Positions 8,753 to 11,491 of a stretch of 32,164 nucleotides of DNA are shown piece after piece. The stretch lies in NCBI GenBank assembly GCA_018648685.1, contig JABGQT010000093.1:1-32164 (forward strand), written 5' to 3'. This DNA is from Anaerolineae bacterium (GTDB lineage Bacteria; Chloroflexota; Anaerolineae; Anaerolineales; Villigracilaceae). The notes beneath the pieces are model-generated. The model was given only the letters and a program-made list of their open reading frames with translations. It searched no databases and had not been told where the DNA came from. Position 1 is the stretch's first letter. The number at the start of each line of letters is the position of its first letter. Both the position numbers and the translations under genes were made by a program.

Positions 8753-10531
8753 TCACCCCAATCTTCCTCTCTCTTCTTCAACGATTTCCTTATCCAATTT
8801 TTTGAACAGCGGTTCTGGTTTGTTAAACGCCGCGCCAGGTTTTAGCTCGCTTACTTTCCATTGCTCACCTTCCACACCCTTATAGCGTAGAGCGGTATGC
8901 GTGCCGAGGTTATCTTCGATAGTTTCAACAAATTGCTCGCCAAAGAGCGGGTTTTCGTAGCCAAAGGTTTCATTCAGCTTTTCGCTGGTGAAGGGTAAAA
9001 ATGGCGCAAAAATGGTTTTGAGCGAGTCAATTGCTTTTAGGGCAGTGTAGACCGATTTTGCAGCCTCTTCTCGGTCTACTTTGAGTTCTTTCCAGGGGGC
9101 GGAGGTGTCAAGATATTTGTTTACCTCGGTTGCCAGTCGCATTGCTTCGTTCAGCGCCGAGCGAATTTTGACGGCTTCGAGCAGATCGCCGACTGAATTA
9201 AATCCGGCTTCGATGGTGGCAAGTAATTCTACATCTGAGGGACGAAGGGTAGCGGTATCTACTTCAGGAATATGCCCTTCCCAATGTTTATAGCAGAAGG
9301 AAAGCACGCGATTGGCGAGATTGCCCCAATTGGCAACCAGTTCGTTATTGTTGTGCGCGACGAAAAATTCCCAATCCCAATCTGAATCTTTGGTTTCGGG
9401 CATATTGACGGTTAGGTAATAACGGAGCGCATCTGGGTCGTAACGTGTGAGAGCATCGCGTCCCCAAACTGCCCAATTGCGACTACCGCTGATCTTCTGT
9501 CCTTCGAGATTCATAAATTGATTGGCGGGCACATCGTGGGGGAGGGTGAGGAGCTTTTCTTCTCCCGTAAAAATCTTCATAAACTCTGTGCCTGCGCCCA
9601 TCAATTCAGCGGGCCACAACGCGGTGTGGAAAAAGATGTTGTCCTTACCAATAAAATGGAGCTGACGCGCATCGGGATTTGTCCACCAGTCTTGCCAGGC
9701 ATCGGGCGTGCCGTTGACTTGCGCCATTTCGATGGGCGAGGAGAGATAGCCGATGACCGCCTCGAACCAGACATAGAGACATTTGCCATCCCAGCCTTCA
9801 ACGGGGACGGGGATACCCCAATCCAGATCGCGGGTGATGGGACGCGGGAGCAGCCCCTCGGCTTCGATCTTCCCGAGAGATTCACCCAAAACAGTATCAC
9901 GCATATGCGCGGAACGCTCGCGCAAGAAACTTGCTACCTTCGGTTCAAGTTTGGAGAGGTCGAGATAAAAATGCTCTGTTTCACGCAACTCAAGCGAATC
10001 GCCGCTTTTTGCTTTGGGATTCTTCAATTTAGCTGGCTCTAGCACATTGCCGCAACTGTCGCATTGATCAGAGCGCGCGCCATCTTCGCCGCAAATATAG
10101 CAGGTGCCTTCAACGTAGCGGTCAGGCAAAAAGCGGCTTGCTTCGGGCGAGTACCACTGCATCGATTTTTTCGCGTAAAGATGACCGTTTTCTTTCAATG
10201 CAAGGAAAATGCTCTGCGAGACCTTGAAATGATTCTCTGTATGCGTGGTCGTGAACATATCGTAGCTAATGCCCATTTGCTGGAAAAGCTCCAGAAAACC
10301 CTCGTGAAAGCGTTTATAGACCTTTTCTGGCGTGCTGCCTTCATCTTCTGCGCGTAAGGTGACGGGCGTGCCGTGCGAATCCGTTCCGCTGACCATGGCC
10401 ACATTTCGTCCTTTTAGACGATGATAACGAGCAATAATATCTCCCGATAAATGTGAGCCGGTGATATTCCCAACATGGATTTCAGCGTTGGCGTAGGGCC
10501 AGGCGATAGCAACAAGAATATTTTCTGTCAT
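8753..10531 (-). CDS. metG: Methionyl-tRNA synthetase
   Basis: A 592-residue class I aminoacyl-tRNA synthetase that charges initiator and elongator tRNA-Met. The HIGH motif appears as HVGN (residues 19-22) after AWPYANAEI. A Zn knuckle is seen in CYICGEDGARSDQCDSCGN near 143-160. The KMSKS loop appears as KISGS near 345, followed by RNWAVWGRDALTRYDPDALR, which resembles the actinobacterial/mycobacterial type (KFSSS) more than the E. coli type. The C-terminal anticodon-binding domain is helical and there is no EMAP/Trbp111 extension. Translation starts at ATG 10531 behind an ACGGAG ribosome-binding site. The 172-base leader holds a Met-codon peptide and a terminator, so expression is probably controlled by attenuation. 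Confidence 0.96.
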   Translation of the reverse strand: MTENILVAIAWPYANAEIHVGNITGSHLSGDIIARYHRLKGRNVAMVSGTDSHGTPVTLRAEDEGSTPEKVYKRFHEGFLELFQQMGISYDMFTTTHTENHFKVSQSIFLALKENGHLYAKKSMQWYSPEASRFLPDRYVEGTCYICGEDGARSDQCDSCGNVLEPAKLKNPKAKSGDSLELRETEHFYLDLSKLEPKVASFLRERSAHMRDTVLGESLGKIEAEGLLPRPITRDLDWGIPVPVEGWDGKCLYVWFEAVIGYLSSPIEMAQVNGTPDAWQDWWTNPDARQLHFIGKDNIFFHTALWPAELMGAGTEFMKIFTGEEKLLTLPHDVPANQFMNLEGQKISGSRNWAVWGRDALTRYDPDALRYYLTVNMPETKDSDWDWEFFVAHNNNELVANWGNLANRVLSFCYKHWEGHIPEVDTATLRPSDVELLATIEAGFNSVGDLLEAVKIRSALNEAMRLATEVNKYLDTSAPWKELKVDREEAAKSVYTALKAIDSLKTIFAPFLPFTSEKLNETFGYENPLFGEQFVETIEDNLGTHTALRYKGVEGEQWKVSELKPGAAFNKPEPLFKKLDKEIVEEERGRLG

Positions 10532-10556: not shown

Positions 10557-10589
10557 TAAAAAAGGGCTGCCCATATTGCGGACAGCCCT
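10557..10589 (-). terminator. Intrinsic terminator in the metG leader
   Basis: On the minus strand the 5' arm AGGGCUGUCC (10589-10580) pairs with GGGCAGCCCU (10572-10563) through ten positions, one of them U-G. The loop has 7 bases and a U-run with an A interruption follows. It sits about 30 bases before the metG ATG, so it must be read through for metG to be expressed. Confidence 0.85.
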
Positions 10590-10664
10590 CAAGAGTGTGT
10601 TTGCGTAAAATTAGCGCGCAACCTCCGTCACCGTCCGTATGGGACAGGGCATAGTCATAGGCAT
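10590..10664 (-). promoter_or_regulatory. Predicted attenuator control region of metG
   Basis: Region 1, CUGUCC (10647-10642), follows the third Met codon directly. Region 2, GGACGG (10636-10631), can pair with all six bases of region 1 across a 5-base loop. An identical CUGUCC forms region 3, inside the 5' arm of the terminator (10585-10580), and region 2 can equally pair with that. A ribosome stalled at a Met codon would cover region 1, free region 2 to capture region 3, and block the terminator. The pairings were read directly from the sequence; the mechanism is inferred from the trp/his/phe attenuation model. Confidence 0.6.
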
Positions 10665-10703
10665 ATTGCCTCGTGATTTTGTCGTGAAAAAGTTTGCGTT
10701 CAT
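10611..10703 (-). CDS. metG leader peptide (Met-rich)
   Basis: A 30-codon frame from ATG 10703 to TAA 10611-10613. Its C-terminal 17 residues are MPMTMPCPIRTVTEVAR, with three Met codons in five. Two starts are possible. ATG 10703 lies exactly 7 bases after a TAAACT -10 box (leaderless). ATG 10664, the first Met of the cluster, has GAGG 4 bases upstream. Both use the same frame and stop. The stop is 21 bases before the terminator hairpin. The proposed role is a regulatory peptide whose translation senses Met-tRNA charging, not a functional product. No homology is claimed. Confidence 0.55.
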   Translation of the reverse strand: MNANFFTTKSRGNMPMTMPCPIRTVTEVAR

Positions 10704-10710
10704 AAGTATT

Positions 10711-10739
10711 AGTTTACTATGGGCTAGGTTTTGGGGCAA
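10711..10739 (-). promoter_or_regulatory. Promoter of the metG leader transcript
   Basis: On the minus strand the -35 TTGCCC (10739-10734) and -10 TAAACT (10716-10711) are separated by 17 bases. The predicted start is at 10703-10704, at the first ATG of the leader frame. The promoter lies just beyond the stop codon of the receiver-domain gene, so metG is not simply read from that gene. Confidence 0.6.
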
Positions 10740-10741
10740 GT

Positions 10742-11491
10742 TTAATCACTCAATAACTTCAATAACTCAGAAGGAGATGATGTGATCGCTGTTGCGCCCA
10801 CGGTATGTGCCTTCATCTTCATCTTTTCGTCTACTTTATCGGTGTAGATGTAAATCGGGACATCTTCATCCAGCTCGCGAATTAGACTTGATAGCTCAAA
10901 TCCGGCATGGCAATTAGGTGTTTCTTTGCCCTCTTGCCGACAAGTATCTGAGATTACGCAGTCGAAAGTGCCTAATTTGAAATGTTTCAGAGCATCTTCG
11001 GTGCTCAGTGCGGTTGAGACTTTAACTTCAGATTCTTTTAGAGAATCGATAATGAAGGCGTTGTTTTTGGGATGATCGTCTACCCACAGAATATCAGAAA
11101 TATTGTCGTCGATATCCAGCGGTATATTCTTAGCCTCAGGTTTGCTTGCCGCTTTAGGAAGATCTTCTGCTCTTCGAATTTCTACCCTTTTCTCCTCGAA
11201 GGTGGTATTTTCTGTTGTTGGTATGTTGCTTTCTGTTTCTGTACCTTTGGGGTCGATTTGACGTTGCAGTTCATTAACGCGTGTTTGCAAATCCTTAATC
11301 ATAACGCCTTGTTGCTTGCTGAACTCGTCCATGCTGAGTTCCATCTCACCAATCTTGACGGTGAATTTACGTCCACGGGCAGAAATGATGAGTGCTTCGA
11401 CGCTTTTGCGGAAAGCGAAGACAATAACGATAACGATCAGGGGCCACAAAATTGTGGCGATGCTGCTGATGATAGCTGAGATTCCTTCCAT
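10742..11491 (-). CDS. Membrane-anchored receiver-domain protein
   Basis: A 249-residue protein in three parts. A single N-terminal membrane segment covers residues 9-27 (SSIATILWPLIVIVIVFAF). A short coiled-coil-like stretch runs from about 50 to 80, followed by a charged linker to 125. A CheY-like receiver occupies about 131-249: acidic pair D138/D139 (LWVDDHP), phospho-acceptor candidate D182 (FDCVISDT) and T217 (IYIYTD). The conserved Lys before Pro is replaced by Ser239 (ITSSPSE). It has no output domain. A membrane-bound receiver without a DNA-binding domain suggests a scaffold or phosphate sink, and the missing Lys may impair the usual switch. No histidine kinase is adjacent. AGGAGG precedes the ATG. 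Confidence 0.75.
   Translation of the reverse strand: MEGISAIISSIATILWPLIVIVIVFAFRKSVEALIISARGRKFTVKIGEMELSMDEFSKQQGVMIKDLQTRVNELQRQIDPKGTETESNIPTTENTTFEEKRVEIRRAEDLPKAASKPEAKNIPLDIDDNISDILWVDDHPKNNAFIIDSLKESEVKVSTALSTEDALKHFKLGTFDCVISDTCRQEGKETPNCHAGFELSSLIRELDEDVPIYIYTDKVDEKMKMKAHTVGATAITSSPSELLKLLSD

Follow-up and report, generated by a model that had tools for sequence, protein, structure and literature searches.

A putative ribosome-mediated attenuator with clustered Met codons and a predicted leaderless leader ORF upstream of metG in Anaerolineae

The methionyl-tRNA synthetase gene metG of the analyzed window (the complete 32,164-nucleotide stretch of Anaerolineae DNA) is preceded by a short Met-rich leader ORF, RNA segments able to form alternative helices and an intrinsic terminator. 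We consider it very likely that metG is controlled by ribosome-mediated transcription attenuation, sensing the charging of elongator tRNA-Met. The parts of the switch, their conservation, their spacing and their covariation were demonstrated, while translation of the leader, ribosome stalling, termination and the response to methionine are inferred, without expression, transcript-end or ribosome data. The features of the locus, all on the minus strand, are as follows.

10742-11491 (-), response-regulator-like ORF, the upstream neighbour, outside the switch; only weak two-component hits
10734-10739 (-), -35 element TTGCCC, 17 nt from the -10 element; TTGACA, TTGCCA or TTGCCC at the same place in relatives
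10711-10716 (-), predicted -10 element TAAACT, ending 7 nt before the leader ATG
10611-10703 (-), leader ORF, MNANFFTTKSRGNMPMTMPCPIRTVTEVAR followed by a stop codon, 30 aa; read directly from the minus strand, the Met-rich ORF being kept in relatives
10650-10664 (-), putative regulatory Met codons (Met-Pro-Met-Thr-Met), ATG at 10664, 10658 and 10652, identified by Met enrichment
10642-10647 (-), region 1, CUGUCC (DNA CTGTCC), able to pair with region 2, from sequence
10630-10637 (-), region 2, CGGACGGU (DNA CGGACGGT), 5' strand of the antiterminator, from pairing, folding and covariation
10579-10586 (-), region 3, GCUGUCCG, common to the terminator 5' arm and the antiterminator, from pairing, folding and covariation
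10558-10588 (-), intrinsic terminator, GGGCUGUCC-gcaauau-GGGCAGCCC-UUUUUU (DNA of the 5' arm, GGGCTGTCC), from folding; matched by covariance model R1
8753-10531 (-), metG, methionyl-tRNA synthetase (TIGR00398), the presumed regulated gene

According to the proposed mechanism, transcription would start at or beside the leader AUG, as inferred from the promoter spacing, and a ribosome would load onto the leaderless mRNA close behind RNA polymerase. With plentiful Met-tRNA the ribosome would pass the Met codons and reach the stop codon, and either its presence there or pairing with region 1 would keep region 2 occupied. Region 3 could then pair with region 4 and transcription would stop before metG. 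When Met-tRNA is scarce, the ribosome would stall at the Met codons and cover region 1, leaving region 2, about 15 nt downstream, free to capture region 3 before region 4 exists. Formation of the 2:3 helix would then allow the polymerase to continue into metG.

The leader ORF of the window extends from an ATG at 10703-10701 to a TAA at 10613-10611, and the metG product scored 476 bits against TIGR00398 (cut-off 336). The original prediction, made from this DNA alone, had described three Met codons within five in the leader frame, and these are present. CUGUCC, said to follow the third of them directly, was found at 10647-10642, but two bases further on. A subsequent segment able to pair with it was located at 10637-10630 (region 2), and the postulated recurrence of CUGUCC in the terminator 5' arm was also confirmed. 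Region 2, which starts 15 nt past the A of the last Met codon, can pair with region 1 or, over 8 bp, with GCTGTCCG at 10586-10579. The antiterminator formed in the latter case is large, closed by the 2:3 helix, and encloses a hairpin around the leader stop codon. Compared with 200 shuffles, the whole 5' leader of metG had a better fold than 195 (z -2.1).

The metG start (10531) follows the T-run after only 26 nt, which places the terminator within the metG 5' leader. This short distance also weighs against the idea that the terminator merely ends the upstream gene, that metG has a promoter of its own and that the Met-rich ORF is incidental. The gap between terminator and metG reaches 50-200 nt in many relatives, which would leave space for another promoter; however, the leader ORF is separated from the upstream gene by a strong promoter, and a Met cluster would arise by chance at a rate of about 0.5% or lower. 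We give this explanation almost no credence. The sequence upstream of the locus in genomes G007 and G008 differs from that in the window, where the response-regulator-like neighbour lies.

Clustering of Met codons was compared with chance expectation in two ways. At least three Met within eight codons occurred in 91% of 114 leaders of the family and in 0.5% of dinucleotide shuffles. Met was the sole amino acid strongly enriched over these shuffles; Lys was only slightly in excess (18% versus 7%), in keeping with recurrent lysines at the N-terminus and in the WKAR motif. The 1468 control windows, taken from the surroundings of pheS, metK and trpS in the same lineages, included 339 with a terminator, and a Met cluster of the same density ahead of a terminator was seen in three.

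Upstream regions of metG (n = 204) were assembled from orthologs in the family, order and class, and scanned for an ORF carrying a Met-codon cluster and an intrinsic terminator 20-160 nt downstream of it. Close relatives of the window genome include Candidatus Desulfolinea nitratireducens. A Met leader with a terminator was identified in 114 of the 120 family genomes with enough sequence, representing 24 of the 25 genera, and the stricter combination of at least three Met in eight codons plus a terminator in 104 of the 120. The family sample is skewed, with 44 genomes coming from one genus. Outside the family, the arrangement was present in 13 of the order's 22 other genomes and in 15 of 58 that belong to other families of the class Anaerolineae. 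It was essentially absent from 30 metG upstream regions of other Chloroflexota classes, in which L366 was the only candidate, a weak one, and L359 had a Met cluster lying far upstream of metG without a terminator; on these regions a phylum-wide element was rejected. The L366 locus (genome G478) carries a possible Met leader, NMMHMTDPAWRAT followed by a stop codon, and a strong terminator, about 30-110 nt upstream of metG. The class provides a class-wide case of predicted attenuation in Chloroflexota in which the codons persist while the terminator sequences change by lineage: types with GGCUGUCC, UGCUGGC or GACCGCCAGC all occur downstream of a Met cluster.

The loss of the Met codons or of the pairings in close relatives had been named in advance as grounds for refutation. 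Both proved to be conserved although the leader peptides diverge beyond the Met codons (MMPMAMPCP, MVPMTMAMRMEMSCCAKWKAR, MMMSRARAQFSAR and MVISMMRMMMDMRHRVRERA). This divergence bears on the possibility that the leader peptide itself stalls the ribosome, by nascent-peptide arrest or Cu(I)-type metal binding, with the RNA switch unchanged. Met-x-Met patterns resemble copper-binding Met motifs, and the leader peptide is Met-rich. Yet the residues around Met vary widely (MMPMAMP, MTMAMRMEM, SMMRMMMDM, MMMSRARA), only the number and place of the Met codons are kept, and the target is the methionine enzyme itself. Peptide-dependent stalling is accordingly considered improbable, and the preferred reading remains stalling at Met codons for want of charged tRNA.

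Several genomes depart from the common pattern. Few internal Met codons are present in some close relatives (two in G002, G003 and G008; one in G005, locus L402), and the Met leader is missing from several family genomes, e.g. G061, G096 and G102. In genome G011 (L021) the terminator is kept about 250 nt upstream of metG without a Met cluster; its region 2 (GGACAGC) immediately follows an AUG and might sense initiation rather than elongation. Tandem AGTCTAAAGTCT repeats were observed between the metG leader and metG at L402 (G005:C136:1-900), G005 being a very close relative.

To locate antiterminators, the stretch from the last Met codon to the terminator was searched for complements of the terminator 5' arm. 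Region 2 begins 14-18 nt past the first base of that codon in 66 of 114 family leaders, which is the peak of the distribution. A ribosome usually reaches about 12-13 nt beyond the codon in its A site, so region 2 mostly lies just outside a ribosome with the last Met codon in that site. Single antiterminators beat 95% of shuffles in only 54 of the 114 leaders. Folding was also predicted for the nascent RNA with the ribosome footprint removed. When the ribosome occupied the last Met codon before region 4 had been transcribed, the mean probability of upstream pairing for the G/C bases of the terminator 5' arm was 0.71, exceeding 0.5 in 103 of 114 leaders; with the ribosome at the stop codon the mean was 0.19, and 13 of 114 leaders exceeded 0.5.

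Covariation was examined at seven positions flanking the 2:3 core. Pairing was seen for 71% of own partners; it fell to 56% when partners were swapped, with 61% as the highest value in 500 swaps, and to 34-46% for slid registers. In these flanks 103 double substitutions were counted, against a maximum of 71 in the swaps; the counts carry no correction for phylogeny. Several of the covarying positions are terminator-loop bases in many genomes, without any other obvious role, and the terminator itself gives no account of their covariation. By computation, not by experiment, the requirement for an antiterminator that sequesters the terminator 5' arm and is mutually exclusive with the terminator is met. 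The clusters in 24 of 25 genera, the covariation of the 2:3 helix and the spacing suited to a stalled ribosome support the attenuation originally predicted.

In several genomes, leaders ending in WKA rather than WKAR before the stop codon (i.e. without ...CACGUU) also lack AACG in the terminator arm. Peptide-level conservation was rejected as the cause of the constant WKAR-stop ending, because K is replaced by R, I or M and the flanking codons vary in some genomes while the RNA pairing is kept.

The way in which region 2 is occupied at high methionine seems to differ between lineages. A clear 1:2 hairpin is largely confined to the genus of the window, where relatives show matching changes (CUGUCC:GGACGG, CUGUCC:GGACAG, CUGCUC:GGGCAG); in G003 and G008 both sides are changed (CUGCUC:GGGCAG) and pairing is kept. 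The 1:2 hairpin of the original prediction is not a general feature. In the largest genus (g9 in our numbering), region 2 (UGGAAAGC...) adjoins and ends at the leader stop codon, so that a terminating ribosome there would mask it. This genus has a long antiterminator, in which 5'-AAGUGGAAAGCACGUU-3' pairs with 5'-AACGGGCUGUCCAUUU-3' with two mismatches. In the subgroup with leaders ending in QFSAR-stop, the antiterminator comprises only 5-7 bp (GCCAG:CUGGC) and lies within extra hairpins that blur the order of events. Leaders of this type (L015, L017, L019, L048 and L165) contain a GCAGUUC...GAACUGC hairpin whose loop, GCCAG, is complementary to CUGGC of the terminator arm, an architecture that possibly represents a pseudoknot-like antiterminator.

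A feature absent from the original prediction is the predicted lack of a 5' untranslated region in the leader mRNA. The leader reading frame is conserved and its start codon lies at or beside the predicted transcription start, which speaks only indirectly for translation. In 111 of 142 cases the distance from the end of the best promoter's -10 element to the start codon of the leader is 6-7 nt, and its usual companion in relatives is a -35 element, TTGACA or TTGCCA, at 17 nt. A Shine-Dalgarno-like motif before the leader was detected in only 4 of 142. Given this spacing and the rarity of Shine-Dalgarno motifs, the mRNA is predicted to start at or beside the AUG and to be leaderless.

This start matters for a Met switch because initiation itself requires fMet-tRNA; starvation for methionine should also cut initiator fMet-tRNA and so oppose translation of the leader. 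Methionine hence poses a special problem, being the amino acid that also begins the leader peptide, and how the leader is initiated while ribosomes stall for Met-tRNA is a testable question. One may ask whether the switch reads initiation alone, the start of a ribosome with fMet-tRNA on the 5' AUG deciding which helix forms. The leaderless architecture is compatible with this, as is G011, whose terminator and region 2 directly after an AUG occur without a Met cluster. Internal Met clusters are, however, kept in nearly all other genomes, and region 2 is placed 14-18 nt after the last internal Met codon and not at the start codon. We regard control by initiation alone as a poor candidate and retain elongation at internal Met codons as the signal. 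It is conceivable, if somewhat doubtful, that leaderless Met-codon attenuators form a widespread lineage-specific class in which elongation (internal Met codons) and initiation (fMet-tRNA at the 5' AUG) are both sensed. If true, this would give metG a two-input response that is impossible for attenuators responding to other amino acids.

Attenuators with a leader peptide have been described that use codons for Trp, His, Leu, Ile/Val, Thr or Phe, and others using Cys codons have been predicted. The classical attenuators of E. coli (trp, his, leu, ilv, thr, pheA and pheST) resemble the metG system in having a leader with cognate codons, alternative antiterminator and terminator helices and the geometry of a stalled ribosome. 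The metG system differs from them in its Met codons, its target, its predicted leaderless start and its occurrence in Chloroflexota, as well as in using several unrelated helix sequences in the same role. The leaderless trpL of Corynebacterium glutamicum begins right at its transcript's 5' end, as predicted for the metG leader, but contains Trp codons and precedes a biosynthetic operon instead of metG. The T-box (RF00230) is also a sensor of tRNA charging that controls synthetase genes by termination; unlike the proposed attenuator it binds tRNA directly, and it had no match at the tested metG loci.

Closer in target are trpS and leuS of Streptomyces (PMC1262725) and hisS/hisZ of bacilli (PMC2965389), in which a synthetase gene is under a leader with its own codons upstream of a terminator, but these concern other amino acids and other phyla. 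In Actinobacteria, attenuators were predicted for trp, trpS, leuS and ilvB, and no RNA structure was seen for methionine operons (PMC1262725). The histidine leader described in bacilli serves hisS paralogs, and metG is not mentioned (PMC2965389). PMC4833913 cites a survey from 2010 that deals with attenuators of amino acid and aminoacyl-tRNA operons. We found no published Met-codon leader peptide or metG attenuator; Lopatovskaya et al. 2010 (Mol Biol 44:128) was outside our coverage and might hold a related prediction. The features that can be tested in sequence support the metG leader as a putative ribosome-mediated attenuator that would be new in its amino acid, its target and its leaderless start.

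Rfam models matched nothing in the window and nothing at the 14 metG loci tested, while the same search does find T-box and SAM riboswitch at other genes; both were rejected as an explanation for metG. T-boxes were detected upstream of pheS in G000, the window's genome (L278, 2636-2911, minus strand), and upstream of trpS in G005 (L323, 2642-2938, minus strand), and, in the same genomes, a SAM riboswitch upstream of metK (L301, 1281-1387, plus strand; also L300 and L299). Closely related genomes thus employ, by prediction, three RNA strategies: T-box (pheS), SAM riboswitch (metK) and Met-codon attenuator (metG). Upstream of pheS, a comparable terminator (CTCCCGTCC...GGACGGGAG) recurs in nearly every relative examined.

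Covariance model R1, built for the metG element, had the metG leader as its top match in most family genomes. Seventeen further matches were examined. One of them, L402, is the metG leader of G005, split off on a broken contig, and the others are not Met leaders; on these matches, an element common to other genes was rejected. Four of the 17 carry leader peptides with many Leu, Ile and Val residues, and three of these (L395, G000:C209 at about 9200-9420; L399; L408) are followed by a terminator and lie upstream of an ilvD-like gene (dihydroxy-acid dehydratase). Classical attenuation probably serves branched-chain synthesis in this lineage too. The fourth, L403, combines such a leader with a terminator, the downstream gene not being seen. 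An example of these branched-chain leader peptides is MFSSQLSLISITLISLILLIGIKEILHVWAKARV, followed by a stop codon.
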